Below are positions 3,367-51,988 of a stretch of DNA of 55,630 bases, piece by piece (positions within the stretch are counted from its first letter, which is position 1; every line of letters starts with the position of its first letter). The notes under the pieces are model-generated. The model was not told the DNA's origin. It saw nothing but the letters and a program-made list of their open reading frames with translations, and searched no databases. Source of the DNA: a virus. The translations under genes and the position numbers were made by a program. Location: positions 1 to 55,630 of IMG/VR virus record IMGVR_UViG_3300025930_000003; one strand, written 5' to 3'.

Positions 3367-4411
3367 GCTATCAGTTCCTAGAGATACATCCCACTGGATT
3401 GTTTCAGGAACTAATACTTTTCGTCTAGCAAGTAAGAAGATTCTCTCTTCTTTAAGAGATACTCCCTTTATTAATTTCGGCGGCAATAGAGCTAACATAG
3501 AGAAATCTATGCGTAGAATATGGTGTGCTGATAAAGGCTATAAACTGCTACAAAGAGATCAAGGTGGTGCAGAAGCATTAATAGTTGCATATCTATGTAA
3601 AGATGGAAACTATAGGGCTTTGTTTCGTAATGGAATAAAGCCCCATACTTTTGTTGCTCTTCATGTATTTAAAGAACAGTTCAAAAAATACTTCGATCCA
3701 GATAAAATCAACATAGCTTGTGACACAAAGATAGATGATCTAAAAAAGTTGGATTTCTGGAAAGCTCTAGATAGGCTAGTAAAATCAAGCGATGAGTGGC
3801 ACCATAATGAACGATACTATTTCATAGGAAAGAAGATAGTTCATGCTTCTTCTTATGGTATGGGAGCTAACAAATATAGAATGTCAGTTCTAGAGGAATC
3901 AGGTGGAACTATTGTCCTATCAAAGATGGATGCGGAACTCCACTTAATGACATTCTTTAAGCTATTTCCAGAAATACATGGTTGGCACGCTAGAATATAT
4001 GAACATGTAAAGAAGTTCAAAGAGCTTAGAAATCTATTCGATTTTCCTTTCGCTTTCACTGGTTATGTAGATGAGTCCAATATTAGAGAAGCTTACGCTT
4101 TTATTCCACAATCAACAGTAGGAACAATCACTAACATAGCAATAACAGAGACACAAGAATACATAGAGAAAGAAAATAAAGATTGGCACATATTGAACAA
4201 TGATCACGATAGCATGGTAGTTGAAGCACCTGATAACGAAACTGATATAAGAGAATGTAATCTAATAATGAAGCAGTTCATAGAGAAAGAGTTCATATCA
4301 CCTGTAGATAAGTGTAAGTTTAAGATGCGGTCTGGATTATCTATAGGTTATAATTGGGCACCATACAAAGAAAAAGAAAACCCAGGAGGTCTAAAAGAAG
4401 TAGAAGAATAA
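3347..4411 (+). CDS. DNA polymerase A C-terminal half: palm and fingers
   Basis: 354 aa carrying the catalytic part of a family A DNA polymerase. The start (HWIVSGTNTFRLASKK) is the usual T-x-T-G-R-L-x-S region. Motif A, with the first catalytic aspartate, is RDQGGAEA near residue 70. The O-helix is GKKIVHASSYGMG near 161-173. Motif C is DHDSMVVE near 286, with HDS where many relatives have HDE. It has no exonuclease domain of its own; that is encoded at 788-2266. I infer that the two proteins form a split polymerase. Confidence 0.88.
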   Translation: MVKVHNKLSVPRDTSHWIVSGTNTFRLASKKILSSLRDTPFINFGGNRANIEKSMRRIWCADKGYKLLQRDQGGAEALIVAYLCKDGNYRALFRNGIKPHTFVALHVFKEQFKKYFDPDKINIACDTKIDDLKKLDFWKALDRLVKSSDEWHHNERYYFIGKKIVHASSYGMGANKYRMSVLEESGGTIVLSKMDAELHLMTFFKLFPEIHGWHARIYEHVKKFKELRNLFDFPFAFTGYVDESNIREAYAFIPQSTVGTITNIAITETQEYIEKENKDWHILNNDHDSMVVEAPDNETDIRECNLIMKQFIEKEFISPVDKCKFKMRSGLSIGYNWAPYKEKENPGGLKEVEE

Positions 4412-4412
4412 A

Positions 4413-5663
4413 ATGCCAACCACCAATCTAGAAAGATGGCGTTATTACTGTGAAACTATACTGTCACCTGCTAGTTATATAGATTGGTGTTTCCACTATC
4501 TAATACTAGCATCTCTTCAAAGACGTGTATGGAGAGGACAAATTGGAGGTAATCCACTTTTCGCGAACCCTTATATAATTCTCACTGGTGAACCTGGGGT
4601 TGGTAAAGGAATCATATTAAAAGAAGTCAGTAAAGTATTACGTTTCCACAAACTAGAGGCTAAAAATGAATATACAGCAGATACAACACCGGCACAATCA
4701 AATGCACTTGGCCAGGGTAGAAAAGAACAAGCGTTATTATTCCCAGTTGGAGCAGACGCATCCACATATGAAGCTCTTGTCAGGGAAATCTCAAGAGCAA
4801 TTAGACCATTCTGGAGAGAAGTTGATGGAAAGAAAAGAGCTTACCTACACTCAAGCCTCTGTTTCTGTCTAGAAGAAATCTCCAGCTTATTTAGAAAACA
4901 CTCAGAAGATTTAGTTCGTTTCCTCTTAGTAACATATGATTGTGGTGATTACCGTTACGAAACAATTTCTAGGGGCACAGATTACATTAAAAATTGTTGC
5001 CTTGCACTTTTGGGGGGAACCACGCCAAAATTTCTTCGACGAGTATTTTCTGACGAACTTCTTAACGAAGGTTTTGCAAGTAGATGCATCTTTGTATTTG
5101 AACTTTGCAATAGATTTGACAGATTAAGGCCGCCAGAATTTAATGAAGATCAAGTCAAGGAACATAAGATAATTCTAGACCATATAAAGAAGCTTTCTAC
5201 TCTATATGGTGAAGTAAAGTTCACTCCAGAAGCATCTGAATATCTAGAACATTGGAACAAGACAGATAAATACAAAAGACCAAATACAAGTCCGAAGCTG
5301 AACTACTATTATGCTAGAAAGCCAGTAACAATGCAAAAGCTAGCTATTGGAATTCATTTTGCGGATTCGGTTACAATGGAAGTAAATCTAGATGAATGTA
5401 TAGAAGCTAGAAAATTGTTAGATAATACAGAGAAAAGGATGCACTTTGCTCTAACGAACGAAAATAAGAATCCTCTAGCAGAAGTAACAGATAGTATCTA
5501 TGACTTTATAGCTAAGAATGGAGGACAAACGAAGAAAGATTTACTTGTTCTTTTCTGGAGCGAACTACCTAATGGAACCGATTCTTTAGATGATGCACTA
5601 AGCTATCTAAATATGGTCAACAAAGTAAAACTGAAAGATAAACAATACATAATACCACAATGA
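4413..5663 (+). CDS. P-loop replication ATPase/helicase, 416 aa
   Basis: A Walker A motif, GEPGVGKG, lies near residue 58 after a helical start that resembles DUF3987-type phage helicase/primase proteins (YIDWCFHYLILASLQRRVW). An acidic strand ending CLEEI near residue 150 is a candidate Walker B. The C-terminus looks like a small winged-helix (TKKDLLVLFWSEL). Its place between polymerase and ThyX fits the replicative helicase or helicase loader. The exact family is uncertain. Confidence 0.7.
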   Translation: MPTTNLERWRYYCETILSPASYIDWCFHYLILASLQRRVWRGQIGGNPLFANPYIILTGEPGVGKGIILKEVSKVLRFHKLEAKNEYTADTTPAQSNALGQGRKEQALLFPVGADASTYEALVREISRAIRPFWREVDGKKRAYLHSSLCFCLEEISSLFRKHSEDLVRFLLVTYDCGDYRYETISRGTDYIKNCCLALLGGTTPKFLRRVFSDELLNEGFASRCIFVFELCNRFDRLRPPEFNEDQVKEHKIILDHIKKLSTLYGEVKFTPEASEYLEHWNKTDKYKRPNTSPKLNYYYARKPVTMQKLAIGIHFADSVTMEVNLDECIEARKLLDNTEKRMHFALTNENKNPLAEVTDSIYDFIAKNGGQTKKDLLVLFWSELPNGTDSLDDALSYLNMVNKVKLKDKQYIIPQ

Positions 5664-27988: not shown

Positions 27989-28138
27989 ATGTTAATCTTT
28001 CTTTTTGAAGTTAATTTACGATGTATAAAATACATTCAGATTTCAGAAAAGGAAACCTGGGAACTTTGCGCCAGCTCATACGCAAATAGAAAGCTGAAAT
28101 GGGGTGCTCAGAAATCCCCTAGAAGCAATACATCTTTA

Positions 28139-28153
28139 GCACAATATGTGCCA
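28139..28153 (-). promoter_or_regulatory. Sigma-54-type promoter before the major capsid gene
   Basis: On the minus strand the sequence reads TTGGCACATATTGTGCTAA: GG and GC separated by exactly 10 bases, as in the -24/-12 consensus TGGCAC-N5-TTGC. Transcription should begin near 28127, about 139 bases before the capsid ATG. Basis: pattern match in an intergenic position. Confidence 0.72.
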
Positions 28154-37003: not shown

Positions 37004-37014
37004 GTTTTACTAGA

Positions 37015-37029
37015 GCAATTTCTATGCCA
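37015..37029 (-). promoter_or_regulatory. Sigma-54-type promoter of the virion operon
   Basis: On the minus strand: TTGGCATAGAAATTGCTCT, with GG and GC 10 bases apart. It faces the small terminase and all virion genes. The expected start is near 37003. It is the only promoter-like site seen at the head of the 30-kb virion block. Confidence 0.72.
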
Positions 37030-37551: not shown

Positions 37552-37992
37552 ATGTCAAATACTACAACCGCAGAAGTTGTGAAAGCAGCCGTCAAAGTTG
37601 GCTGGTTTGCTGGTGCATTGTCGGGTTTTCAACGTGTCGTTTTCCGCGATTTGTGTTATGCGGGATTCGATAAGCAGATTGCCCACAAGGTATCAATGGA
37701 CTACGGCAGTCAGCTTGGCAGCGCGATGCGGAATGATGACAACATCAAAACCGCAGTTGGCAAAGCCACAAAAGCTGGTTTGGCCAAAATGTCCGGCGCT
37801 TTTCATGACAAGCTCATCATGCACAATAGCATGGCAGTTTATCGCGTGGTGCAAACCATTAGCGACCTTTATCAAAAGGAAAAACTGTTGAAATCGTACG
37901 AGATCAATCTGGACACCCTGTCTGACAGGTTGCAGGATTATCTCAGCGAGTGCAAAGTGTGGGCATCGGAACAAACTTGGGAAACCAAGTAA
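37552..37992 (+). CDS. Isolated gene of foreign composition, 146 aa
   Basis: I start at 37552, where AGGAG sits 6 bases upstream; the longer frame from 37480 has no ribosome site. The protein is helical, basic and alanine-rich (AEVVKAAVKVGWFAGALSGFQ), with no recognised domain. Codons ending in C or G (GGC, CGC, ATC, AAC) are far commoner than in neighbours. It has its own promoters and a strong terminator, so it is a self-contained transcription unit like a moron gene. The role is unknown; early host takeover or superinfection control are possibilities. Confidence 0.78.
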   Translation: MSNTTTAEVVKAAVKVGWFAGALSGFQRVVFRDLCYAGFDKQIAHKVSMDYGSQLGSAMRNDDNIKTAVGKATKAGLAKMSGAFHDKLIMHNSMAVYRVVQTISDLYQKEKLLKSYEINLDTLSDRLQDYLSECKVWASEQTWETK

Positions 37993-37999
37993 CCCGCCA

Positions 38000-38037
38000 G
38001 TGTGTAGAGATACCCTGTCTCTACACACTCCTTTTTC
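38000..38037 (+). terminator. Intrinsic terminator of the isolated gene
   Basis: An 11-bp perfect stem (GTGTGTAGAGA, 38000-38010, with 38018-38028) and a 7-base loop TACCCTG are followed by TCCTTTTTC. It starts 8 bases after the stop at 37992. This is the clearest rho-independent terminator in the window. Confidence 0.88.
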
Positions 38038-38039
38038 AG

Positions 38040-38345
38040 TCCGTTATTTGAAATCTTATCAATCTGACTTTAGACTCTAAAGAACGAGAGATAAACCTAT
38101 AAAAAGAGCTTAACATATTCCGCACAAGCTAATAGAAAAGATAGCCCACAAGAGTATCAAATCTAGTGCAAAGGAAATGCCTCAAGCGATTATCCCTTAT
38201 AATTAGGAGTATCGCACATAAGAGATTAGGATAGCAACCTAGAATAAATACCAAGAGAATTGCAAAGGATGAAAGGAAAATAAAGTAATCCTGAGCGAAT
38301 CTCTCTTTCAGATATGAAACATTCATGTTTGAATAAGGAGATTCA
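38040..38345. other. Non-coding leader of the small-gene region
   Basis: No convincing plus-strand gene. It contains one CCGCACAAG motif at 38120-38128 and near-matches CCCACAAG (38145) and CGCACATAAG (38205). A minus-strand frame here is hydrophobic but lacks a ribosome site. An AAGGAG site follows for the next gene. Confidence 0.5.
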
Positions 38346-38651
38346 ATGCCATACATAAAATGCGCTAATAAAAAGTGTGATAATCATGCACAACATAAAG
38401 GATTGTGCACTCCATGTTTTAGAGAATCCCAGAATATTAACATTCCAGTCTCTAAACATGAACAGACAAGAAGAGAAAATGCTCGTCTAATGAAGTTCTG
38501 GGATGCGAACAAGAAAGCACCACAATTTGAGCAGATTTCAAAGAGAGCTAGCAAGAAAGGAATAAGCGGATTCCACAAGGGACTATATATGTCTCAAAGA
38601 GGAATAAGCAAGTTTGGTGATCTCCAACAAGATGTGCCTTTTCCTGAATAA
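38346..38651 (+). CDS. Small zinc-binding protein, 101 aa
   Basis: A good AAGGAG ribosome site precedes the ATG. The N-terminus has CANKKC, H and CTPC within residues 6-28, a plausible zinc knuckle, followed by a basic, disordered-looking tail. It may bind nucleic acid. It stands alone between a long leader and the promoter at 38662. Confidence 0.7.
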   Translation: MPYIKCANKKCDNHAQHKGLCTPCFRESQNINIPVSKHEQTRRENARLMKFWDANKKAPQFEQISKRASKKGISGFHKGLYMSQRGISKFGDLQQDVPFPE

Positions 38652-38661
38652 TTAAAAAGAA

Positions 38662-38676
38662 TGGCATAAAAAATGC
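38662..38676 (+). promoter_or_regulatory. Sigma-54-type promoter before the small-gene block
   Basis: AATGGCATAAAAAATGCTTC: GG and GC 10 bases apart, with ATGC at the -12 box. It starts 11 bases after the stop of the zinc-binding gene. Transcription would start near 38688 and run into the many small genes. Confidence 0.6.
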
Positions 38677-38726
38677 TTCAGAAAAGGACGTGGGCAATTC
38701 AATTAACATTCAACTTATTTAACACT

Positions 38727-38786
38727 ATGATTATTCTATTCTTTGTAGCAATACTTTTTTGGTTAGCTCTTGATTATAAGGAGTAA
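38727..38786 (+). CDS. Possible 19-aa membrane peptide
   Basis: ATG to TAA gives MIILFFVAILFWLALDYKE, one hydrophobic helix with a charged end. There is no ribosome site, so this may be chance in AT-rich sequence. It is the only frame between the promoter at 38662 and the next gene. Confidence 0.22.
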   Translation: MIILFFVAILFWLALDYKE

Positions 38787-38833
38787 ATTTGTTGCTCTTT
38801 ATTTTAATCTTTGTGCCTTCAAATCAACTAGAT

Positions 38834-38880
38834 ATGTTTTTTATTATACTTATATATATAATAATATAATAAAATATTAA
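38834..38880. other. Very AT-rich tract
   Basis: A run of nearly pure A and T (only one C, at 38849, and one G at 38836), including TATATATATA. Such tracts can be DNA-unwinding elements of origins or flexible promoter-upstream DNA. No iterons were seen beside it. Confidence 0.45.
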
Positions 38881-38938
38881 GGTATTTAGAGAAAGAAAAA
38901 TTCACTCCTTCCAGTATAACTAAGCATTTAAAAACTCT

Positions 38939-39337
38939 ATGTCAATGAAAGAAGTATCGCTAGAAGATATAAAACAAGCGATGAAGCGACGCGAGGCTGA
39001 GCGACTAGCTAATCCTCTTCCTAAACAATTTATTCCTAGACCAGATAAAAAGATCAAAAAGGAGCCATCTCATAACATTTACGACATTGGTCTACAGGCG
39101 TTTATCCGTCTCTATTGCTTTCGTAACGTAGAATGTTTCTCCATTAAACATCTTAAAGTTCTTCCTGACGATGACCTTAACAATCTCTATAAGAGAGTTA
39201 ACTATTGGACCAAATGTGGCTTTATTGAAAAATTTGATGAATCTACCTACGTAGTTACAGAATCAGCCAAAGCGAAACTAGAAGCTATTTTCGATCTTTT
39301 AAACAAACATCAACATGGTAAAGGAATTGAAGAATGA
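38939..39337 (+). CDS. Possible winged-helix protein, 132 aa
   Basis: A basic, disordered first third (IPRPDKKIKKEP) leads to a helical domain that resembles a winged helix (FSIKHLKVLPDDDLNNLYKR, then VNYWTKCGFIEK, then STYVVTESA). That layout would suit DNA binding and regulation. The ATG at 38945 is a possible alternative start. Confidence 0.6.
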   Translation: MSMKEVSLEDIKQAMKRREAERLANPLPKQFIPRPDKKIKKEPSHNIYDIGLQAFIRLYCFRNVECFSIKHLKVLPDDDLNNLYKRVNYWTKCGFIEKFDESTYVVTESAKAKLEAIFDLLNKHQHGKGIEE

Positions 39338-39552
39338 AAGAAAAAGAACTTCGCGGAAGAATTGCTAGACTTAAAACTCAAGGTATCACAGGAGAATATG
39401 AAGTGTTTGTTCGCACAAGAAATAAGCTAGGACAAGTAATAATCTCTCGTATCTTTGAAGTCAAATGTGACCACATAAGCAGAGAATTTACCATCGAGAC
39501 AATCGAAACAGAATATAGCAATCTACCAGAAGATGAACTTACAACAAGCTAA
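39334..39552 (+). CDS. Hypothetical protein, 72 aa
   Basis: Coupled by ATGA overlap to the previous gene. Basic, strand-rich core (YEVFVRTRNKLGQVIISRIFEV) and an acidic end. A TCGCACAAG motif lies inside it at 39411, read as VRTR. Confidence 0.55.
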   Translation: MKEKELRGRIARLKTQGITGEYEVFVRTRNKLGQVIISRIFEVKCDHISREFTIETIETEYSNLPEDELTTS

Positions 39553-39775
39553 ATCATTTCTCTCTTCATGCCATAGAATAGTAATTGAAGAAGATGACGG
39601 AAATTTAGATATTTATTGGTGCCGCACAATCAATTTAGGCTATTGCGCACATGGATACTTCAACAATCACACAATAGAACAAGTAGATATTGGAGACAAT
39701 AGATTTTACTTCAATGATGCAAAAGAACTGAAAGATTGCTTCAAAACATCTCAGACACTTACACCAGAAATATGA
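39533..39775 (+). CDS. Hypothetical protein, 80 aa
   Basis: An AGAAG purine run before the ATG and a 20-base overlap with the previous gene. Mixed alpha/beta, with IYWCRTINLGYCAHG in the middle. Contains CCGCACAAT at 39622. Confidence 0.55.
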   Translation: MNLQQAKSFLSSCHRIVIEEDDGNLDIYWCRTINLGYCAHGYFNNHTIEQVDIGDNRFYFNDAKELKDCFKTSQTLTPEI

Positions 39776-39999
39776 AAACATTAGATAATCCAAATGAATG
39801 CTACTATCAAGCCGCACAAGAGCTTTATAGAAGAGCACATGAAAGATACGGTGCTACCTATAATTTTGGTGGGCCAGGATACGAAGATAGAATGAAATAT
39901 TGGGAGAACAAAGCATTAGAGTATTTGACTCTATCACATGAATGTCTTAGAGGCAATAAAGAGGCTATATTGAAATTACTCGCTGAACTTGGTTGTTAG
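39772..39999 (+). CDS. Hypothetical protein, 75 aa
   Basis: Start at 39772, where ATGA overlaps the previous stop. Helical and tyrosine-rich (YYQAAQELYRRAHERYGATY, then YWENKALEYL). CCGCACAAG at 39812 is read as AAQE. Confidence 0.55.
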   Translation: MKTLDNPNECYYQAAQELYRRAHERYGATYNFGGPGYEDRMKYWENKALEYLTLSHECLRGNKEAILKLLAELGC

Positions 40000-40028
40000 T
40001 CGCACAAGAACTTAACACAACAAACAAT

Positions 40029-40208
40029 ATGAGAAAAATAATTGTTAGCGAAATGAAAGACTTTAGATTCTGCATAGAGTGGTATGAAGATGATGTTTGT
40101 GTTGGCGGAGCATTTAGCACAAAACCAGACTTAATAGAAGAGGATATAAATTTTCTTCTCCATAGAAGTAGACGAGATTACAGAAAACCAGATGAAAACA
40201 TTAAATGA
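40029..40208 (+). CDS. Hypothetical protein, 59 aa
   Basis: The ATG at 40029 follows an AC-rich leader (AACACAACAAACAAT) and a TCGCACAAG motif at 40000. Strands then helix (IVSEMKDFRFCIEWYEDDV). No family recognised. Confidence 0.5.
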   Translation: MRKIIVSEMKDFRFCIEWYEDDVCVGGAFSTKPDLIEEDINFLLHRSRRDYRKPDENIK

Positions 40209-40338
40209 TTTTCTCCGCGCATTACTTTTTATCGAACTCGACGCAATTGATAGAGCAATTTCACAGATGAAAAACAAGAAGCGGGCTAAAATGATTAGAA
40301 GAGCATTTAAAAAACAATGGAAATTTAGCCTAAGATAA
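40192..40338 (+). CDS. Small basic helical protein, 48 aa
   Basis: A frame read by eye, overlapping the previous gene by 17 bases. MKTLNDFLRALLFIELDAID then a strongly basic tail (KNKKRAKMIRRAFKKQW). It could bind nucleic acid. Confidence 0.5.
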   Translation: MKTLNDFLRALLFIELDAIDRAISQMKNKKRAKMIRRAFKKQWKFSLR

Positions 40339-40342
40339 TTTC

Positions 40343-40361
40343 CGCACAAATCAATTGTGCG
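40343..40361 (+). other. Hairpin built from two inverted CGCACAA motifs
   Basis: CGCACAA (40343-40349) and TTGTGCG (40355-40361) form a 7-bp stem with a 5-base loop. It lies just before the AAAGGAAAC ribosome site of the next gene. It is the one place where the dispersed motif also appears inverted. Confidence 0.5.
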
Positions 40362-40378
40362 AAAAAGAAAGGAAACAT

Positions 40379-40732
40379 ATGACTGAAAGAAAAATGGCAA
40401 AAGAGATAGCAGATATTCTATCTAACGAACAAGTAACAAAATACGGTGGAACCATTAAGATAACTGGCGCGGAGTCAGTTAAAGAGACCGCACAAGAACT
40501 TTCTTCTCCAACTGTTGAAAAACCACAAGAGCCTAAATATAAGGTTCTTTTCGAATATGACGAACAAGCAGGCAAATGGGAAGTCTATTGTTATGGTGCG
40601 AAAGATGAATATGAAGCACTAGATATGTTTTGTGCGGTTGTTGTTACAGCTAGAAGTGCGATTCCTAGCCAGAACTACAACAAAGCAATCCTAGAGAATG
40701 GCCGATATAAGATAAGTGTAGGTGTTTTATGA
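40379..40732 (+). CDS. Hypothetical protein, 117 aa
   Basis: Start at 40379, seven bases after AAAGGA. A helical first third (MAKEIADILSNEQV) and a strand-rich second part (YKVLFEYDEQAGKWEVYCYG). CCGCACAAG at 40488 is read as TAQE. Function unknown. Confidence 0.6.
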   Translation: MTERKMAKEIADILSNEQVTKYGGTIKITGAESVKETAQELSSPTVEKPQEPKYKVLFEYDEQAGKWEVYCYGAKDEYEALDMFCAVVVTARSAIPSQNYNKAILENGRYKISVGVL

Positions 40733-40881
40733 CATTATATGATCTTAAGTTAGAAGAGAAGTATCTTCTAGATAGATTTGTTCGCACAAGTCCGGACAAC
40801 TTAGAAACAATAAATAGAATCTGGAAAAGACTCAGAAAAGTAAAAGAACTAATCGAAGAGAAAATGAAAGTAGCCAAATGA
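40729..40881 (+). CDS. Hypothetical helical protein, 50 aa
   Basis: A frame read by eye with ATGA overlaps at both ends. Charged helices (MTLYDLKLEEKYLLDRFVRT, then IWKRLRKVKELIEEKM). TCGCACAAG at 40782 is read as VRTS. Confidence 0.52.
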   Translation: MTLYDLKLEEKYLLDRFVRTSPDNLETINRIWKRLRKVKELIEEKMKVAK

Positions 40882-41060
40882 AAACATGGAATCTATCGGA
40901 GAATGGAATCTTAACACTAGAAGAGAATAATGCAGCTATGATTGTGTCTATTGTTCTCTCTAACGAGCAGAAAGCTAAAATACATAAGGAAGTTGATTTA
41001 GCACTAAGAAGAGAGATTGCAAGACAAAGAGAGACATTTAATACTGTCCTTAAACATTGA
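40878..41060 (+). CDS. Hypothetical protein, 60 aa
   Basis: Coupled to the previous gene. The first half is strand-like (WNLSENGILTLEENNAAMIV), the second a basic helix. It is followed by the motif variant CCACACAAG at 41061. Confidence 0.52.
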   Translation: MKTWNLSENGILTLEENNAAMIVSIVLSNEQKAKIHKEVDLALRREIARQRETFNTVLKH

Positions 41061-41072
41061 CCACACAAGAAC

Positions 41073-41285
41073 ATGAAAAAGAAACTACCAATCTATATTG
41101 TTTGGATTCTATTCAATAATAGATATACTTACTTTTCCGCACACTCCTGTTTGAAGGAAGCGACTTCATTCTCAAATAAGTTCCTAAATAGAGATATTCT
41201 ATCTAAAGTTACAGAACATTGGCTAGAACTGGAAAATATTCTTGAGACAACAGATGGAGATTTAATCAAGAATCTAAATCTATGA
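41073..41285 (+). CDS. Hypothetical protein, 70 aa
   Basis: Starts 12 bases after the previous stop, right after a motif variant. Strand-rich start (LPIYIVWILFNNRYTYF) then a helix. Overlaps the next gene by 4 bases. Confidence 0.5.
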   Translation: MKKKLPIYIVWILFNNRYTYFSAHSCLKEATSFSNKFLNRDILSKVTEHWLELENILETTDGDLIKNLNL

Positions 41286-41473
41286 AAAAGAAATACATGA
41301 TAGTTATGTTTGATACTGAAACAGGTTTAGTTAAACATCCAGAAGAAATATGGGATAACTATAGACATGTTAGTGCTAGCTTTAAAGACTTATATTCTTC
41401 AGAAGAGTCCGCACTAGAACATGCAACTGAACATGGATTAAGCTATTTCTCTATTATTCCGGTCTACTATTAA
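41282..41473 (+). CDS. Hypothetical protein, 63 aa
   Basis: ATGA overlap with the previous gene. Begins MKKKYMIVMFDTETGLVKHP and ends in a tyrosine-containing strand (GLSYFSIIPVYY). The DTET string alone does not make an exonuclease at this length. Confidence 0.5.
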   Translation: MKKKYMIVMFDTETGLVKHPEEIWDNYRHVSASFKDLYSSEESALEHATEHGLSYFSIIPVYY

Positions 41474-41536
41474 CCGCACAAAGAGACTATTCCGCACAAG
41501 AGCTTTCTTGCACAAAAAGAACAACAAAACAAACAT

Positions 41537-41713
41537 ATGAAAAAACATCACGAAGACCTAAAAAGTCTAGTTAAAACTGGACAAATAACAGCAAAAGAAG
41601 CTCTAGATAGATTAATTTCTAGAGCTAAAGATAGCAAACAAGCATCTGAATCAATGACCGCCAGATGGTTAAGAGCTAGAATTTTGACTCACGCAGACAA
41701 CTATAGAACATAG
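41537..41713 (+). CDS. Hypothetical helical protein, 58 aa
   Basis: Read by eye. The 63-base leader holds two CCGCACAA motifs (41474, 41492), TTGCACAAA (41509) and a CAA-rich stretch before the ATG. Basic helices (VKTGQITAKEALDRLISRAK). No family recognised. Confidence 0.5.
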   Translation: MKKHHEDLKSLVKTGQITAKEALDRLISRAKDSKQASESMTARWLRARILTHADNYRT

Positions 41714-41726
41714 AAAGGAGGTAAAT

Positions 41727-41870
41727 ATGATTCGCCGTATTACATCATTCGGTTATATCTGGTTTAAAGAAGGCAAGCAAGTTGCTTGTCAAGTTGGACA
41801 CAATTGGAATGGAGAGACTCTCTCCATTCAAGAGAAGCGTATTCTTAGGAAACTAGCAAGTAAGAGCTAA
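41727..41870 (+). CDS. Hypothetical protein, 47 aa
   Basis: Has the best ribosome site in the window (AAAGGAGGTAAAT before the ATG), so it is surely translated. Begins MIRRITSFGYIWFKEGKQV and ends in a basic helix. Codons are less AT-biased than those of neighbours. Confidence 0.62.
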   Translation: MIRRITSFGYIWFKEGKQVACQVGHNWNGETLSIQEKRILRKLASKS

Positions 41871-41951
41871 AATGTCTGGAGCGGTAACTTCTTACAAACT
41901 ACCGCTTCAGCAATTTTAACTCATACCGCACAAGTCAACTATAGAAACATT

Positions 41952-42134
41952 ATGTATAGATTCATTCTTCAATACATTATAGTATCTAGAGAATATGGTT
42001 TCAGACCATATTTTTATGCACTTACTTTCTGTAATAGAATCTCTCTAGAGAATTATAAACAAGATAACACAGTAGCTTTCTATCAATATGATTTAACAGC
42101 GGAAGAGATCGGTCAATTACTAGGAGGAAACTAA
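41952..42134 (+). CDS. Hypothetical protein, 60 aa, paralogue of the next gene
   Basis: Preceded by CCGCACAAG at 41926. It starts MYRFILQY and ends LTAEEIGQLLGGN. The next gene starts MYNFIHKY and ends MTTEEVGQYLGGN, so the two are a tandem duplication that diverged in the middle. Confidence 0.58.
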   Translation: MYRFILQYIIVSREYGFRPYFYALTFCNRISLENYKQDNTVAFYQYDLTAEEIGQLLGGN

Positions 42135-42135
42135 T

Positions 42136-42279
42136 ATGTATAACTTCATTCACAAATATAAAGATCAAGTATTTCTATCTTGGCAAGATGATCTATGGGA
42201 ATGTTGGATTGATGTGCTTTCAGAATGTGGTGAATGGATGACAACAGAAGAAGTAGGACAATACCTTGGAGGAAACTAA
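42136..42279 (+). CDS. Hypothetical protein, 47 aa, paralogue of the previous gene
   Basis: Read by eye. The GGAGG ribosome site is formed by the last codons (LGGN) of the gene before it. Tryptophan- and acid-rich middle (LSWQDDLWECWIDVL). Its own LGGN codons supply GGAGG to the next gene. Confidence 0.6.
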   Translation: MYNFIHKYKDQVFLSWQDDLWECWIDVLSECGEWMTTEEVGQYLGGN

Positions 42280-42281
42280 AA

Positions 42282-42542
42282 ATGATAAGCAAAGAACTAG
42301 AGATGGCTATAGTTGTTCGCTATAGGGAAATAACACCAAAAGAACAAGCAGAAGAGCTTTTTGACTTCGCACAAAAGCTTACTGAAATAATATCTTCTCA
42401 CGCAACAGAGAAGAAATATTCATCTGCTTCTATGGTTACTTTAATGTATCTTGTTAGCGAAACATTTCATGAACAAGCTAGAGAAAAGATAGAGAAGAAC
42501 GCGGTAGAACTATACAAGAAAATACTAGAAGGAAACAAATGA
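42282..42542 (+). CDS. Hypothetical helical protein, 86 aa
   Basis: Start at 42282, just after GGAGGAAACTAAAA; the longer upstream frame overlaps the previous gene. All helical (PKEQAEELFDFAQKLTEII). It resembles the next gene in layout and in a (S/T)xE..I/V.L...S..F pattern, suggesting another tandem pair. Confidence 0.58.
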   Translation: MISKELEMAIVVRYREITPKEQAEELFDFAQKLTEIISSHATEKKYSSASMVTLMYLVSETFHEQAREKIEKNAVELYKKILEGNK

Positions 42543-42769
42543 TAACAGAAGCACATAAACTACAATCCGCACAAATCTTTCTTACTCTTCCAAAAGAGAG
42601 ACAAGATTTAATAGACAACTTCTACAATAAGTTGGGCAAAGAGATACTAGACTTTGTTAGGGAGAACAAGTTAGTAACAGCAGAAATAATTGTTCTTCTA
42701 GATACTTTATCAAGCAAATTTTACGAAGCTCTAGAAGATGATTATAAAGAACATATAAAGAAAAGTTAG
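42539..42769 (+). CDS. Hypothetical helical protein, 76 aa
   Basis: ATGA overlap with the previous gene, whose AGAAGGAAAC codons give a ribosome site. Helical and acidic (TAEIIVLLDTLSSKFYEALE). Contains CCGCACAAA at 42567. Ends 20 bases before a sigma-54-type promoter. Confidence 0.58.
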   Translation: MITEAHKLQSAQIFLTLPKERQDLIDNFYNKLGKEILDFVRENKLVTAEIIVLLDTLSSKFYEALEDDYKEHIKKS

Positions 42770-42788
42770 AGTAAAGATAAAGACCACT

Positions 42789-42803
42789 TGGCACAGTTCT
42801 TGC
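42789..42803 (+). promoter_or_regulatory. Sigma-54-type promoter, best match
   Basis: CTTGGCACAGTTCTTGCTTA matches the -24/-12 consensus at every conserved base (TGGCAC, N5, TTGCTT). The start is expected near 42815. It drives a single gene (42959-43588) that ends in a terminator. The sequence TCAATTTGCA at 42817-42826 is also found just downstream of the promoter at 50777. Confidence 0.85.
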
Positions 42804-42868
42804 TTACATGGGTCTATCAATTTGCACTTCAAATATTAAAAAGAATGATTTAATTTCCAAAAGGAAAA

Positions 42869-42914
42869 CAGAACCAGTTAAAATTCTCCGCGCGAACATT
42901 TTTAATTGGTTCTG
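42869..42914 (+). promoter_or_regulatory. Long hairpin in the mRNA leader
   Basis: CAGAACCAGTTAAAA (42869-42883) pairs with 42900-42914 in a 15-bp stem with one G-T pair; the 16-base loop holds CCGCGCG. A CAA-rich single-stranded stretch follows. It lies about 45 bases before the ATG at 42959, so it may protect the 5' end or bind a regulator. Confidence 0.6.
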
Positions 42915-42958
42915 CAACAAAACAAACAAGTAGTTCGCGTAGAAAAGAAAGAAATCCT

Positions 42959-43588
42959 ATGAAGGAATTCGAAGTCAAAGTAAAGAAAGAGATAGAGATA
43001 GAGAAGGAGGTTGACGGTAAGAAAGTTAAGGAGAAAGAGACAGTTGAAACTCCTGTCGCGATTGCGCCTATTAAGGTGCAGAAAGGAAAAGGTAGGGGTT
43101 CAGAATATCTAGCTCCTAAGAACGTCAGCACATTAACATTGAAAGATTTGCTTGCAATGTTTAGTGAAGCAGATCTCGTCAATAAGTTGTTCCGTCCTAA
43201 ATTCAAGCAGTTTTGTGCTACCATCTCGGCGGAAGCCGGGTATGAAGCAGGAAAAAGAACTGCAAGTGATGTGAAAGCGGCTAAAAAGGAAGGAAAAATC
43301 ATCCAAGAATGTGGAATCCAAGATGAGGAGAAATTCTACGACGCATTTAGTCGTATGTTTTCCTCTCTTTCTGCTAGAGGTGAAACTGTTGCTGGATTAA
43401 GCAGACAACAGAATGAACTTCTTGCAGAATTTGGTGATCTGGATGAAAATGCTCCAGACTTCGCAGTTCGTTCTGCTGCGATCTTCAGGGAAATCAAGAA
43501 GATCCGTGAAGCACTTGCTGAAAAGAACACTGAATCAGAAGGTGATGATTCAGAAGAAGAAGGAAAACCAGAAGCGGTTGCTGCTTAA
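42959..43588 (+). CDS. Probable abundant regulatory or DNA-binding protein, 209 aa
   Basis: The N-terminal ~40 residues are Lys/Glu/Val-rich (FEVKVKKEIEIEKEVDGKK), the middle is mixed, the C-terminus helical with an acidic tail (ESEGDDSEEEGKPEAVAA) like those of single-strand DNA-binding proteins. No family recognised. It has its own sigma-54-type promoter, structured leader and terminator, and less AT-biased codons, all of which suggest high expression. Confidence 0.72.
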   Translation: MKEFEVKVKKEIEIEKEVDGKKVKEKETVETPVAIAPIKVQKGKGRGSEYLAPKNVSTLTLKDLLAMFSEADLVNKLFRPKFKQFCATISAEAGYEAGKRTASDVKAAKKEGKIIQECGIQDEEKFYDAFSRMFSSLSARGETVAGLSRQQNELLAEFGDLDENAPDFAVRSAAIFREIKKIREALAEKNTESEGDDSEEEGKPEAVAA

Positions 43589-43604
43589 ACATCAGCAAAA
43601 CATT

Positions 43605-43642
43605 GAAAGGGAAGTAATTAATTTTACTTCCCTTTCTTTTTC
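43605..43642 (+). terminator. Intrinsic terminator
   Basis: A 13-bp stem (GAAAGGGAAGTAA, 43605-43617, with 43624-43636) and 6-base loop are followed by TTTTTCC. It is 17 bases after the stop at 43588 and closes the sigma-54-driven unit. Confidence 0.82.
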
Positions 43643-43655
43643 CTTATTTAAATTT

Positions 43656-43838
43656 ATGTGTATAATATTAGATTTAACACAACAAGTAAGTATTAAAGAC
43701 GGATCAGTAGTAGATCAAGTTAATGTGCGAATTGAAGGCAATTTACAAACATTAACTAAAGATCAAATTGATCTTATAGAAGAAAAGTTAGATTGGGCAA
43801 TAGATATATTAGGTTTAAATAATATAAATAAAAGATAA
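43656..43838 (+). CDS. Hypothetical protein, 60 aa
   Basis: Start at 43656, after the terminator; the longer frame that begins at 43413 is only antiframe to the previous gene. Begins MCIILDLTQQVSIKDGSVVD, strands then an acidic helix (DQIDLIEEKLDWAIDIL). No clear ribosome site. Confidence 0.55.
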   Translation: MCIILDLTQQVSIKDGSVVDQVNVRIEGNLQTLTKDQIDLIEEKLDWAIDILGLNNINKR

Positions 43839-43839
43839 T

Positions 43840-44286
43840 ATGCCGCACAAGAACTCAGAAAGTATTGGAAAATCATTACATTCTGATGGATTACCGCACA
43901 AAGAAATAGAACATAAGGAAATAGATCCAGAAGGTCTAAAACAAGGACTTGGTAGAATAACTAGAGCTAGACCTTTAACCGAAGAAGAGAAAACTTCTCT
44001 AAAGATAAAGAAACAAATTCTAGATATGGGAAAATCTTTTACCCTAAAAAGTAATTCAACTCCTTTTAGTCCAGCACCAGACAAACCAATTGTTGTTATA
44101 AAAGAAATGCAAGACATTACCGCACCAGAAACTGTAGAGATACAGATAAGATCTGATGCTAAAACAATCTGGATAAACATTGACGGAATCTGTAGACTAA
44201 GAGCTTGCCGAATTAAGAACTTAGTCCTAATTGACGAACATTCTAAAAGAACCATAGTATATCCTACAAATGAAACTAGCACTTGA
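43840..44286 (+). CDS. Hypothetical protein, 148 aa
   Basis: The CCGCACAAG motif starts one base after the ATG (read P-H-K), and a second copy lies at 43894. The first half is basic and disordered (GLGRITRARPLTEEEKTSLK). The second half is a small beta domain (TVEIQIRSDAKTIWINIDGI). Overlaps the next gene by 17 bases. Confidence 0.58.
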   Translation: MPHKNSESIGKSLHSDGLPHKEIEHKEIDPEGLKQGLGRITRARPLTEEEKTSLKIKKQILDMGKSFTLKSNSTPFSPAPDKPIVVIKEMQDITAPETVEIQIRSDAKTIWINIDGICRLRACRIKNLVLIDEHSKRTIVYPTNETST

Positions 44287-44617
44287 AAAATTAGAAAAAT
44301 GGGCAGAATCATTACCAGATGACAAGGTAATTGATTTCTTAGATAATAATAATTGTGTTATCTGTCAATTCATAAGAGATACAACAGGAATGGCCGCATC
44401 TGCTAGTGCTACTAATTTCTATGTATATCCTAGTGGTATTTCTCGTGAAGGAGAAGTTATATCTCGAAGAATAGAGCCAGAAATTATTGAAATATTAATT
44501 AAAGCAAGAAATCCTAGTATTGGTGAATATTCAAATGATATAACAAAAGAAAGACTATTAAACGCAATTAGGAAGGTAAAAAATGAATTTACCACAACTA
44601 ACTCTTCCGCTTCTTGA
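44270..44617 (+). CDS. Hypothetical protein, 115 aa
   Basis: Helical start (LEKLEKWAESLPDDKVIDFL), a CVIC pair near residue 29, then a mixed second half. It overlaps its neighbours by 17 and 35 bases. Function unknown. Confidence 0.58.
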   Translation: MKLALEKLEKWAESLPDDKVIDFLDNNNCVICQFIRDTTGMAASASATNFYVYPSGISREGEVISRRIEPEIIEILIKARNPSIGEYSNDITKERLLNAIRKVKNEFTTTNSSAS

Positions 44618-45053
44618 TAAGTTTCTCTCACTTAGCATAGGATATAGAGACTATCTAGAAATAGATGATGAGGGAATTCTTAGTCTAGTTTCTATTATTG
44701 ACAACGAAGAGCAACTTTATCATGTAGAAGGAAAGAAAGTCTACAAGAAAAAAGCTTGGCTAAAAGATCTAGATAGACTCGCTCGTTCTAGAAGAGAACA
44801 TGAAGAACTAATGACAATAAAAGATGCCCGCGTTAGAAAATTAAAGGAGCTACAAATTAGACTTTCAGAAGAATTTGGTGTAGATAAGGACAATGAGATA
44901 ATAATTAAGATGGCTCTCAATATAATTAGGCGCGGCAAAGAGAAAACTGCTAATATGTTAGGGGTTGATATAGATAATGTTCCTACTATGCCAAGCAGCT
45001 ACTATATTCTTGACTATCCAACTACTGATGGAACAATGGAGATTAAACTATGA
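44583..45053 (+). CDS. Hypothetical protein, 156 aa
   Basis: GGAAGG lies 5 bases upstream of the ATG. The middle is a long charged helix (YKKKAWLKDLDRLARSRREH), possibly coiled-coil. The C-terminus is strand-like. No family recognised. Confidence 0.58.
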   Translation: MNLPQLTLPLLDKFLSLSIGYRDYLEIDDEGILSLVSIIDNEEQLYHVEGKKVYKKKAWLKDLDRLARSRREHEELMTIKDARVRKLKELQIRLSEEFGVDKDNEIIIKMALNIIRRGKEKTANMLGVDIDNVPTMPSSYYILDYPTTDGTMEIKL

Positions 45054-45328
45054 AAAGAGATTGCGGAAATGGAGAATTAGTTCCAGTCAAATATGAAGTT
45101 GTCTATTGTGTTGGCGAACATAGCGATGATGAAATTGTGCTAGAACGTAGAACATTTAATGAAGCTAAAGAAGTTTTTCAATCAAAACTTCCAGAGATAC
45201 AAGCTACTCGTTGTAGTAATCTTAGACTATATGCTCTAGATAAACAGGGATATGCTAATTGTATTATATCTTATACACATTGTAAAAATGGAGAAAAAAC
45301 AATAAATGACCGCACAAATGAATTATGA
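45050..45328 (+). CDS. Hypothetical protein, 92 aa
   Basis: ATGA overlap with the previous gene. Strand-rich (VKYEVVYCVGEHSDDEIVL) then mixed. The last copy of the dispersed motif, CCGCACAAA at 45310, is in its C-terminus (read D-R-T-N). Confidence 0.58.
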   Translation: MKRDCGNGELVPVKYEVVYCVGEHSDDEIVLERRTFNEAKEVFQSKLPEIQATRCSNLRLYALDKQGYANCIISYTHCKNGEKTINDRTNEL

Positions 45329-45498
45329 TAGTAAAAATAACAGTAACTGGTAAAATAGTTTCTGACGAACCTATTGAAGCTCAATTAGAACTACCACCTA
45401 ACTGGAATCCAAACATAAAAGAGGTTTTCATAGTTAAAGGAGCAATATCTAGATTAGTAGACGAACTAAGTGAACATTTCCCTAAAATAAGTGGATAG
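45325..45498 (+). CDS. Hypothetical protein, 57 aa
   Basis: Read by eye, ATGA overlap with the previous gene. Begins MIVKITVTGKIVSDEPIEAQ, a strand-rich protein with a short C-terminal helix. It ends 6 bases before the helicase start. Confidence 0.55.
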   Translation: MIVKITVTGKIVSDEPIEAQLELPPNWNPNIKEVFIVKGAISRLVDELSEHFPKISG

Positions 45499-45504
45499 AC
45501 TATT

Positions 45505-47757
45505 ATGTCAAGAAAAGCTAAAGTAAAAGTAATTACTCTAGAAGATGAGATAAAGAAACTTATTCCTTGTCTTAATCAAGCGAAGTCTAGGTTCTCCTTT
45601 CACAAAGAGGAAAGAACCTATGGCTTTCTCGCACTAAACTTTGGTATAACAATAAAAGATCCAGTTTTAAAGAACAGACCAATAGTCTTTGAAGATATCA
45701 ATTTGTTTCATAGTCAGTTAATAGTTAGATTAAAGGATAAATATGACATCAGAAAATACATCGGTGATAGAAAAGTTGAAGTGCTTGAGGGAAGTAGTGA
45801 GCCACAAGGAGAAATGGGGGGAAATATTGGAATTATCCCCAGCGGAGAAAGAAGCGATACTCCAGAAGCACATGACAGCGAGAATGTTAGTAGAGAAGTA
45901 TCTAGGATTGAAAAGAAAGATGAAGAAGTCAAAGAGATTGATAGCTTCACACTTGAAGAAAGAAATAAAGAAACGGAATCGCACTTTGATTCGATATTTG
46001 TTGCTAAGTGGCCAGATCAGAAAGCTAACTTACTGAAGCAAAAAGATGGTTGTGAGCAACTAGAGACTGCCCGCAAACTTTTTAATGAGATCTGGTATAA
46101 TCTTAAACCAGGTTTCTTGTTAAATGCTCAAACTGGAGCAGGAAAAACTTACATAGTCGGTTCCGTAATAAAGAATCTACTAAATCATGGACTATTAGAG
46201 AAGGCTAGATGTATTAGTCCAATACCGATTGCTTACATTACTAAAACTTCTATTGTAGAACAGACAGAGAATGATGTTCTAAAAGAGGCTTTCAATCTAG
46301 ATGTTGTCAACACAGTTCATGTTTTCAACATAGAGACTCTTCGATCTAAGTTTGGTAAGTTGTTCGTAAAGGAACGAATTAACGTAGTCAATGGACAAGA
46401 GACTATAGAATATGAATGGAATCCTAACATTGTTCCATGTCTCTTTATCTGGGACGAATGTCAGATTCTAGCTAGAGAAGAATCTATTCAGTCCAAGATA
46501 GCACAAGCAGTTAGCAGGGTGAAGAATAAAACTATTATTCAAATCTTTATGTCAGCTACTCCATTTTCCCGCGTTTACGAAGCTAGATGTTTCGCTGTAG
46601 CTACTCATACTACATTCTTTTTCGGTATGGGAGAAGTAGAACTTACTGATAGAAACTGGAAACAGTTCTCTCATCAAATTGCTGCGCCATCAGATCCAAT
46701 GGATTATTGTGAAGCAGCTATTAAGAGATTTGTAGAAAAAATGGATCCTTATATTCTACGAATTAAGAACATAAGGCCAAAACATAGAGCCTTCAATGGT
46801 GTAAGCAAGATATTCTTCAGAACAGACGAAGAGAGGCTTGAATATGAGACAGCTTGGGAACGATATCAAAAAGAGAAAGCGAAGATAGAAGAAGAGTCTC
46901 TTAGGACAGGAGAAGGTTCCTATTTCCAGCTTTTAGCACAATTGACTATTATGAGAAAAGCTGCTGAAAAATGCAGACGTTATCATCTAGCAGAATTTAT
47001 GCACAAAAGTTGGTTAGCTGGTAAAGCTCCTGTATGCGTTGTCGCTTTCAAAGGAACAATTACTGGAGCATATAGAATTCTAGTAGAAGATTATGGTTGG
47101 TGCCGCGACGATGTTTCAATCATTTGGGGTGGTTCAGTAGAGTCAATGAATCTGAAGAAGAAAGTAGGATTGAAGATCAAGAACAATAAAGCTTTCCAGG
47201 AAGCAATGAAGGAAGCGGACATTGATTTACAAGAACTTGGTTTCGATCTAGAGAATCTAGAAGTTAAGACAGAAGAGCAGATAGCTTTTGAGAAGCTACA
47301 TAATCTTCTCACACAAGATCCAGAGTCAAGAGAGAAAGAGAGAATAAGATTCCAGAAGCAGAAATCCAGAGGATTATTCTTAACCTTTAAATCTGGTGGA
47401 GTAGGACTTTCTGCACACCATCAATATCCTGAAGCAAAACAGAGAGAAACACTATTAACTCCTGTCTATTCAGAAAAGGAACTTGTTCAAGGTTTAGGAC
47501 GTTGTCCTAGAATTACTTCTTTAACAGACACATATCAATTCATGTGCTACTATGTAGGAACAATTGAGGAAGCGGTTGCACAAAGAGTTGTTATGAAGTT
47601 GAAGAATCTTAAGCATGTAGTTAAGATGAAAGAGGCTTGGGAAGATATATTTACAGGGAAGAAAGTTCAACTCAAGCAAGATGATGAAGAAACTATGGAT
47701 ATGGTAGATGAATTTGAAGGTGGTAACTCAATGCTAGAATATGTGGAGGAAAAATAA
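45505..47757 (+). CDS. SF2 helicase / DNA translocase, 750 aa
   Basis: Two RecA-like domains. Walker A AQTGAGKT lies near residue 208, motif II WDECQ near 315, motif III MSATP near 349 and motif VI QGLGRCPR near 661. An N-terminal ~190 residues of unknown fold and a charged insert near 570-600 are extra. SF2 helicases of this kind remodel forks or recombination intermediates, or help transcription. It heads the right-arm DNA metabolism block. Confidence 0.85.
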   Translation: MSRKAKVKVITLEDEIKKLIPCLNQAKSRFSFHKEERTYGFLALNFGITIKDPVLKNRPIVFEDINLFHSQLIVRLKDKYDIRKYIGDRKVEVLEGSSEPQGEMGGNIGIIPSGERSDTPEAHDSENVSREVSRIEKKDEEVKEIDSFTLEERNKETESHFDSIFVAKWPDQKANLLKQKDGCEQLETARKLFNEIWYNLKPGFLLNAQTGAGKTYIVGSVIKNLLNHGLLEKARCISPIPIAYITKTSIVEQTENDVLKEAFNLDVVNTVHVFNIETLRSKFGKLFVKERINVVNGQETIEYEWNPNIVPCLFIWDECQILAREESIQSKIAQAVSRVKNKTIIQIFMSATPFSRVYEARCFAVATHTTFFFGMGEVELTDRNWKQFSHQIAAPSDPMDYCEAAIKRFVEKMDPYILRIKNIRPKHRAFNGVSKIFFRTDEERLEYETAWERYQKEKAKIEEESLRTGEGSYFQLLAQLTIMRKAAEKCRRYHLAEFMHKSWLAGKAPVCVVAFKGTITGAYRILVEDYGWCRDDVSIIWGGSVESMNLKKKVGLKIKNNKAFQEAMKEADIDLQELGFDLENLEVKTEEQIAFEKLHNLLTQDPESREKERIRFQKQKSRGLFLTFKSGGVGLSAHHQYPEAKQRETLLTPVYSEKELVQGLGRCPRITSLTDTYQFMCYYVGTIEEAVAQRVVMKLKNLKHVVKMKEAWEDIFTGKKVQLKQDDEETMDMVDEFEGGNSMLEYVEEK

Positions 47758-47758
47758 T

Positions 47759-48229
47759 ATGGCAAAAGTATTAGATAATAAAGAAGTTCTTGATAAAATC
47801 TTATCTAGAATTGTTCCACATCTTAATGGATGTTGGATATATCATGGAACTTTTGATGAATATGGTTATGCTAGAATAAGACATAGATATAAATATTGGA
47901 GAGTTTCTAGATTAATATACAAACTAACCTTTCCTAAACTATATAAAGAAGAATTAAATACTTTACATAAATGTGACAATCCAGCATGTGTTAATCCAGA
48001 ACATTTATTTCAAGGAACTCAGGCTGATAATATAGAAGATATGATAAGTAAAGGCAGACATAGTATAGAGGGTAGAGCTAAAGCATTTTTAACTGAAGAC
48101 CAAGTTAGAGAAATCAGAAGTTTAATTAAACAAGGAGTAAAGCAAATAGATATAGCGAAAAGATTTGATGTAACAGACTCAATTATTTCAAATATAAATA
48201 AGAATAGAATTCATAGAAATGTTATATGA
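47759..48229 (+). CDS. HNH endonuclease with C-terminal HTH, 156 aa
   Basis: Start at 47759, with GAGGAA upstream. The HNH core is LHKCDNPACVNPEHLFQGT near residues 69-87, with N and H ligands present. A helix-turn-helix follows near 125-150 (GVKQIDIAKRFDVTDSIISN). This is the pattern of free-standing HNH homing endonucleases, and its place between helicase and ligase fits such an insertion. A role in DNA processing is the alternative. Confidence 0.85.
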   Translation: MAKVLDNKEVLDKILSRIVPHLNGCWIYHGTFDEYGYARIRHRYKYWRVSRLIYKLTFPKLYKEELNTLHKCDNPACVNPEHLFQGTQADNIEDMISKGRHSIEGRAKAFLTEDQVREIRSLIKQGVKQIDIAKRFDVTDSIISNINKNRIHRNVI

Positions 48230-49122: not shown

Positions 49123-49343
49123 GTGAACTAACAACATGCAATTATTGTAATTTAAGGTGGATAAAAGATAGAGCGAAAAAAGAGAAAAAGAAAGTAACAA
49201 AGCTTCCAACTTCTCAAGGACTTGGTGGATTTGAGATCTTTGTTCATCCAAAAGAGATAGATATAAAGAAACTTTCCAAGAAAGAAAGAACTAAATACTT
49301 CAGCTCTTGGATGTGGGAAATAACAGATCATTGTGTTTGCTAA
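49119..49343 (+). CDS. Hypothetical cysteine-rich protein, 74 aa
   Basis: ATGA overlap with the ligase. CNYC near residue 7 and CVC at the very end could bind zinc together. Between them is a strongly basic stretch ([15 protein letters not shown]). It immediately precedes the sigma-54 activator. Confidence 0.55.
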
Positions 49344-49350
49344 AAATAAT

Positions 49351-50202
49351 ATGATATACGGAAAAGAGAACTACAAGATGAACAATAACAATGCAGAGTT
49401 GCAGAAAAAGCTTCTAAGAGCAGAAGAACTTCTTAGAAATACAGGAAATGATTCCTATATAAGAGAACTTAAAGAGCAACTTGGTAAGTCGAATACAGAA
49501 CAGTGGCTTAGCAAGTTTGTCACAAAGTCCAATTCGATGACGAAATTGAAGGAGCAAGTTAGAAAGCTAACTCCAATAGATGATCCAGTATTAATATTTG
49601 GTGAAACAGGAACAGGAAAAGAACTATTAGCTCATGCACTTCAAGGAGATAGAAAAGGAGCTTTCGTAGCAATTAATTGTGCTGGATTACCTGCACAGCT
49701 AATGGAAAGTGAACTATTTGGTCATGAGAAAGGATCTTTTACTGGAGCGGTAACTGAAAAGATTGGTCTAATGGAGGAAGCACAAAATGGAACTATATTT
49801 CTAGATGAAATAGGTGATCTTGCAATAGAGATGCAAGCGAAACTTCTAAGAGCAATTCAGGAGAAATCCATTAGAAGAGTTGGAGCGAAAGAAGAAATCG
49901 CCATTAATTGTAGAATTGTTTCTGCAACACATAGAAATCTAGAGGAATGGGTAGAAAAAGATAAGTTTAGAGAGGACTTATTCTACCGCATTAGCACTTT
50001 TGTCTTGAAGCCTACACCGCTTAGGACTAGGTCAGCAGATTTACCTCTAATACTCGCCTATCTTGATAGAGATGAATGCGAGATAGAAGATTATAATGAG
50101 TTCGCAAAGAAGATTGATATAGAAAAACTAAAAGGTAATGTTCGTTCGCTTCAGCAAATCTATCGTAGATTTGTAGTTCTTGGACTTGAACCACATGAAT
50201 AA
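49351..50202 (+). CDS. Sigma-54-dependent transcription activator, AAA+ domain only, 283 aa
   Basis: The AAA+ domain of an NtrC-family activator is nearly complete: Walker A GETGTGKE near residue 83, the sigma-54-contacting loop GSFTGA near 128, Walker [10 protein letters not shown] near 148, sensor/arginine finger [10 protein letters not shown] near 206, and the LKGNVRSLQ segment near 260. It ends there, so the Fis-type DNA-binding domain is absent; the first ~60 residues are a short helical lead with no receiver domain. ATP hydrolysis by such hexamers opens host sigma-54 RNA polymerase complexes. Starts at 49333 or 49378 are also possible. Together with six matching promoters it forms the likely switch to middle and late transcription. 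Confidence 0.93.
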
Positions 50203-50776: not shown

Positions 50777-50791
50777 TGGCATACTTCTTGC
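50777..50791 (+). promoter_or_regulatory. Sigma-54-type promoter
   Basis: AATGGCATACTTCTTGCTTAG: GG and GC 10 bases apart, with TTGCTT at the -12 box. The start is expected near 50803, where TCAATTTGCA (50804-50813) repeats the sequence found just downstream of the promoter at 42789. It drives the gene at 50849 and perhaps the rest of the arm. Confidence 0.8.
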
Positions 50792-50848
50792 TTAGTTCCC
50801 ATGTCAATTTGCATTTTTTCTCTTTTAGTATAGTAAAATTATATTCTT

Positions 50849-51811: not shown

Positions 51812-51988
51812 ATGTTAATAATGAAATGCGATAATTGTCATCTGGAATTTGAACCTAAAGCTACTTTTGATATAAAAGTAGAATCCAGAAGTAAAGAATT
51901 TCCAGATAGAACTGTATTTTGTCTAGAATTGTGCGAAGAGTGTGCTAATAAAGTAATTCTAGATTTGAAAAATTACTGTTCAATATGA
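51812..51988 (+). CDS. Small zinc-finger protein, 58 aa
   Basis: I use the ATG at 51812; an ATG at 51821 and a TTG at 51806 are also in frame. CDNC near residue 6 and CEEC near residue 39 form two knuckles (LCEECANKVILDL). Probably a zinc ribbon. Confidence 0.55.
   Translation: MLIMKCDNCHLEFEPKATFDIKVESRSKEFPDRTVFCLELCEECANKVILDLKNYCSI

Follow-up and report, generated by a model that had tools for sequence, protein, structure and literature searches.

What is the role of one short sequence word that recurs, in the same orientation, across a block of small genes in a phage genome? The source record of 55,630 bases, analyzed here at its full length ("the window"), is that of a tailed phage. 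Its minus-strand genes at 7-37 kb, with a tail collar protein among their products, were taken as virion genes, and the replication genes on the plus strand encode a polymerase in two pieces, a primase, a helicase, a ligase, an exonuclease, and a Sak4-like protein. The DNA polymerase is split over two open frames (788-2266 and 3347-4411) with small genes between them, and homologues to both parts are present in relatives. The block in question is placed between the virion genes and the replication genes at 38-45.5 kb, with the helicase and replication genes directly downstream on the same strand.

38000..45500, plus strand: small-gene block of about 26 small genes, mostly orphans, containing all plus-strand copies of the word

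The gene map is our own reading of the open frames, in which the start assigned to gene 43840 is not certain. Just upstream of the block, a terminator-like 14-bp hairpin followed by a T-run (37999-38029) closes gene 37552-37992. Tiny host-takeover genes come in blocks in phages, and their joint control is mostly unknown.

The initial annotation had reported about 18 copies of the word, all on the plus strand, and this count was reproduced: CCGCACAAG with at most one mismatch occurs 18 times on the plus strand and once on the minus strand of positions 38,000-45,500. On both strands of the whole window, 29 such matches were found compared to 3.05 in dinucleotide shuffles (largest value, 7), which bears out the suspected enrichment of the 9-mer. 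The tight form of the word is YCGCACAA, with the next base mostly a purine (R). Its exact copies on the plus strand number 16, all within 38.0-45.5 kb and none elsewhere on that strand, and the minus strand of the whole window has three copies (40355, 40630, and 51929), two of which are in the block. The plus-strand copies in the block, exact and near, are as follows.

38120..38128, plus strand: exact copy CCGCACAAG, in the leader region; the first small gene starts 226 nt downstream
39411..39419, plus strand: exact core TCGCACAAG, inside gene 39334-39552, frame 2
39622..39630, plus strand: exact core CCGCACAAT, inside gene 39533-39775, frame 2
39812..39820, plus strand: exact copy CCGCACAAG, inside gene 39772-39999, frame 1
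40000..40008, plus strand: exact core TCGCACAAG, adjoining the stop codon of gene 39772-39999; next start 29 nt on
40342..40350, plus strand: exact core CCGCACAAA, 3 nt past a stop codon; next start 37 nt on
40488..40496, plus strand: exact copy CCGCACAAG, inside gene 40379-40732, frame 1
40782..40790, plus strand: exact core TCGCACAAG, inside gene 40729-40881, frame 2
41061..41069, plus strand: near copy CCACACAAG, adjoining a stop codon; next start 12 nt on
41137..41145, plus strand: near copy CCGCACACT, inside conserved gene 41073-41285
41409..41417, plus strand: near copy CCGCACTAG, inside gene 41282-41473
41474..41482, plus strand: exact core CCGCACAAA, adjoining a stop codon
41492..41500, plus strand: exact copy CCGCACAAG; next start 45 nt on
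41926..41934, plus strand: exact copy CCGCACAAG, intergenic; next start 26 nt on
42367..42375, plus strand: exact core TCGCACAAA, inside gene 42282-42542, frame 1
42567..42575, plus strand: exact core CCGCACAAA, inside gene 42539-42769, frame 1
43843..43851, plus strand: exact copy CCGCACAAG, spanning codons 2-4 in gene 43840-44286 (start choice uncertain), 4 nt past the previous stop
43894..43902, plus strand: exact core CCGCACAAA, inside gene 43840-44286, frame 0
44120..44128, plus strand: near copy CCGCACCAG, inside gene 43840-44286
45310..45318, plus strand: exact core CCGCACAAA, at the end of gene 45050-45328; next start 15 nt on; final copy before the helicase gene

Against these 16 exact copies, an order-2 model built from motif-masked sequence predicts 0.34 occurrences of the 7-base core CGCACAA in the block. 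On the sense strand of the replication genes there were no copies (0.46 expected), and on that of the virion genes there was one (0.61 expected). The outcomes that had been named as speaking against a special word, i.e., no excess, equal use of both strands, and equal frequency in the virion genes, were thus not observed. Ten exact copies lie inside genes and are spread over frames 0, 1, and 2, confirming for these copies that all three frames are used, and their number compares with 0.40 after synonymous-codon shuffling (maximum of 4 in 1,000 runs). Together, the use of all frames and the shuffles rule out a coding explanation and give good support to the earlier view that the protein is not the reason for the repeats. 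In the short gaps between genes, 6 copies were observed and 0.03 expected. Since one-letter variants of CGCACAA were near background in number in the block and, in an alignment of the copies, conserved positions ended at 8-9 with unconserved flanks, a decaying repeat or mobile element is ruled out and a seam is not indicated; what selection keeps here is an oriented, exact word. When about 200 phage loci, collected via this phage's own searches and not a random sample, were put through the same screen, this was the strongest dispersed, frame-independent, one-strand word. Searching for words of this kind offers a sequence-only route to such regulons in uncultured phages.

The placement of the copies follows gene borders. 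Six of the 16 exact copies are intergenic, in 13.6% of the block (p = 0.015), and four exact copies (p = 1.4e-4) plus one near copy start 0-4 nt past a stop codon. For copies inside genes, the relative position averages 0.31 (p = 0.004-0.007), i.e., they lie in the first third of the gene. The distances between copy and start codon range from -63 to +109, and 15 of 16 copies fall within -65 to +110 of a start codon, a range picked post hoc with the data already seen. The initial annotation had placed many copies 10-40 bases before a start codon, which was overstated, as only four exact copies (-15, -26, -29, and -37) and one near copy (-12) are located there; the starts just after stop codons and the preference for the first third of the gene are the stronger signals.

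Relatives were sought via the helicase, the 42959 protein, both polymerase halves, and a portal-like protein, and only two records, L007 (helicase 64% identical) and L237 (polymerase 74%), were found to be near; a search of genome_contigs with two proteins gave no match. In L007, the nearest relative found to contain this block, five block genes have a homologue, and these five carry none of the 10 in-gene exact copies, all of which lie in orphan genes (p = 0.024). YCGCACAA is matched once in the record of L007, on the minus strand, and not at all in that of L237; in L237, a homologue of block gene 44583-45053 was not detectable. Nine further relatives showed no comparable word. A different word in relatives was also considered and rejected, as the CGTAGCCG match in the related phage L030 is a tandem coding repeat and the others are coding or tandem. 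A pair search of IMG/VR for the same word in other phages gave, among the matches listed, only tandem or single-frame coding repeats, and among the papers listed as naming CCGCACAAG, none was on phages. With no such pattern in L007, L237, or the nine further relatives, it therefore belongs to this phage or to an unsampled group, and conservation is no test of its function.

The word is very probably a control tag for small optional genes. As to its mode of action, we tentatively favor, at somewhat less than an even chance, a word on the sense strand that controls expendable early genes and is most likely read in mRNA. This reading is preferred because of the sense-only orientation, the restriction to one gene set, the location in the 5' parts of cistrons, and the absence from the helicase and replication genes. 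YCGCACAAR would mark the transcripts of expendable early genes as a selected, strand-specific control word. Its reader would be a sequence-specific factor on the sense strand, most likely on mRNA, such as a phage or host endoribonuclease or an RNA-binding protein, and would act on each tagged cistron in its 5' part; tagged messages might then be switched off or processed, while the co-directional replication genes would be spared. What the sequence shows is selection for an exact, oriented word; early expression of the block, action of the reader on RNA, and shut-off as the result are inferred. The repeated gain of an exact word in unrelated genes suggests that something reads all copies, and this gives a handle for finding the reader. 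In its full form, one word would tag each expendable early message and one RNA-acting factor would switch off or process the whole accessory set while replication genes stay on, making up a post-transcriptional regulon whose word evolved many times independently in unrelated genes; this is conceivable, if rather doubtful.

A precedent for a word that is cut in early mRNAs is provided by T4 RegB, whose sites are found in the sense strand of genes of the early type, in the gaps between genes and in some cases within them (PMC3014915). The copies here are similarly placed on the sense strand, between genes and in 5' parts of a presumably early block. In contrast, RegB sites read GGAG with an A-rich tail and are often the Shine-Dalgarno sequence itself, whereas the word described here is unrelated to GGAG, and a RegB homologue was not recognised among the proteins scanned. 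Nor was any RegB-like, MazF-like, or RNA-binding protein recognised among them, and no Rfam families were found at gathering thresholds. Random implants of the word are predicted to be just as accessible in the mRNA as the real copies, which counts against the mRNA reading, and the copy at 40342 is locked in a hairpin (40343-40361; 7 bp, perfect), of which it forms the 5' arm, a structure that is awkward for a reader of single-stranded RNA. The block itself encodes one candidate reader.

38939..39337, plus strand: gene whose product may be a winged-helix protein (low-confidence model), with a weak L007 homologue

Base pairing of the word with other RNAs was also considered. A Shine-Dalgarno substitute was rejected, as pairing with the anti-Shine-Dalgarno sequence is the same in genes with and without a copy, and so was rRNA pairing, as neither the 16S nor the 23S rRNA of E. 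coli contains the complement. The nine-letter word itself is identical, in the same sense, to nine letters of 16S rRNA that are universally conserved (nt 931-939 in E. coli), which is probably a coincidence since the flanking letters vary. With respect to an antisense RNA within the phage, the complement at 51929 sits in a 60-codon open frame, with nothing RNA-like by eye.

Among the alternatives, the one that survives best acts on DNA. The copies could be oriented DNA-binding sites through which a phage regulator stops or dampens transcription within the early operon, in the manner of the mycobacteriophage L5 stoperators, which we consider possible and on the unlikely side. L5 sites are asymmetric, occupy short intergenic spaces, are oriented along the direction of transcription, and cease to function upon reversal (PMC9283540, PMC6550527), and the copies here have a similar distribution. 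A short asymmetric word in many copies, a single orientation with respect to transcription (16 plus and 2 minus in the block), and word differences from phage to phage are likewise shared with the stoperators of L5 and cluster A mycobacteriophages (PMC9283540, PMC6550527). A polar DNA-level reading accounts for the orientation as well as the mRNA reading does, and the block carries the gene for the possible winged-helix protein. However, L5 stoperators have a 13-bp consensus, are spread over the structural and non-structural parts of the whole genome, and serve a known immunity repressor of a temperate phage, whereas the word here has 8-9 conserved positions without flank conservation, and its plus-strand copies are confined to one block (38.1-45.3 kb). 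The proteins scanned yielded no recognisable integrase or repressor, only the winged-helix model of low confidence. In addition, the helicase gene immediately downstream would also be affected by a polar block at 45310. Of the roles proposed by the initial annotation, RNA processing sites and binding sites for a phage protein are left as the two best readings, between which sequence alone cannot decide.

Recognition sites of a phage nicking enzyme, which would leave the virion DNA with single-strand interruptions at defined places, as found in phages tf, T5, and phiKMV, are an unlikely explanation. In phage tf, a 9-base word, TACT/RTGMC, occurs at 14 sites, all of them on one strand, with three further one-letter variants only (PMC3517423), and the exactness and strand bias of the word described here match this pattern. 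An endonuclease gene is also present.

47741..48229, plus strand: HNH endonuclease with C-terminal HTH, a candidate nicking enzyme, not found in the nearest relative

The tf sites, however, extend from 4.5 to 80% of the genome, whereas the copies here all lie in 13% of it, clustered in small accessory genes with a preference for gene borders. Nicks as such leave no trace in a sequence.

Two further kinds of phage repeats were compared. The start-associated sequences of cluster K mycobacteriophages are phage-specific and asymmetric and occur in one orientation in the non-structural half of the genome only (PMC3203893), all of which they have in common with the word. Unlike them, it has no Shine-Dalgarno part (they contain AGGAG, 3-7 bp before start codons), no fixed spacing to the start, and no link to genes with a weak Shine-Dalgarno sequence. 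The 17-bp repeats of cluster O mycobacteriophages resemble it in number and position, with about 30 copies between genes, near gene 5' ends, and inside genes (PMC4351075), but they are palindromes without orientation and occur in the whole genome. Phage-specific oriented words are thus already known as stoperators, start-associated sequences, and nick sites; since the word lacks, for every one of these, one or more of the defining features tested, we regard it as a new variant and not as a member of any.

Seams or recombination sites left by the acquisition of gene cassettes, which the initial annotation had also suggested, fit poorly and are very unlikely. The copies do accompany genes without homologues in L007, and five of the 20 exact or near copies begin at a gene's end. 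On the other hand, 10 of the 16 exact copies are inside open genes, in several frames, and not at junctions; a conserved site structure is lacking, with dissimilar flanks and one-letter variants near background, and a cassette carrying a copy is common to none of the phages compared. A DNA-uptake, Chi-like, or host-derived genome signature is extremely improbable, as such signatures are short, exact, and over-represented like the word, but uptake words occur on both strands and genome-wide and Chi-like words genome-wide, whereas this word is missing from the remaining 48 kb of the plus strand.

Other features of this phage and its relatives concern transcription and repeats. An AAA+ protein of the sigma-54 activator type is encoded at 49333-50202 on the plus strand (Pfam Sigma54_activat, E = 6e-63), with a GSFTGA motif and no obvious DNA-binding domain. 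Matching predicted -24/-12 promoters, TGGCAC-N5-TTGCW, are located at several gene starts, at 42789-42804 and 50777-50792 on the plus strand and at 37014-37029 and 28138-28153 on the minus strand. Relatives retain both the activator and the promoters, a promoter often being placed directly behind the activator gene, and a phage-run sigma-54 switch across the phage family would merit a separate study. The structure model of the strongly conserved 42959 protein was too poor for use. In the leader of its gene (42959-43588), downstream of a sigma-54 promoter, both phages have a CGCGCGAAC...GTTCGCG inverted repeat (42770-42958 in the window and 7740-7808 in L007), and the gene is followed by a strong terminator (43605-43636).

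In related phages, low-complexity genes of GCTGCTTATGCT-like repeats were observed (L030, 1-310; L011, 2250-2340; and L023, 1490-1650). L030 also has a G-S-G-Y hexanucleotide repeat gene at 4800-5060 and a tmRNA gene at 657-950 whose predicted tag peptide is unusually long. An unrelated phage, L201, carries six repeats of about 45 bp at 473, 855, 1440, 1652, 3215, and 3599 (ttgctgttt..TTATAGCA..tggtcaac), which are mostly intergenic, lie on one strand, and are possibly phage promoters.
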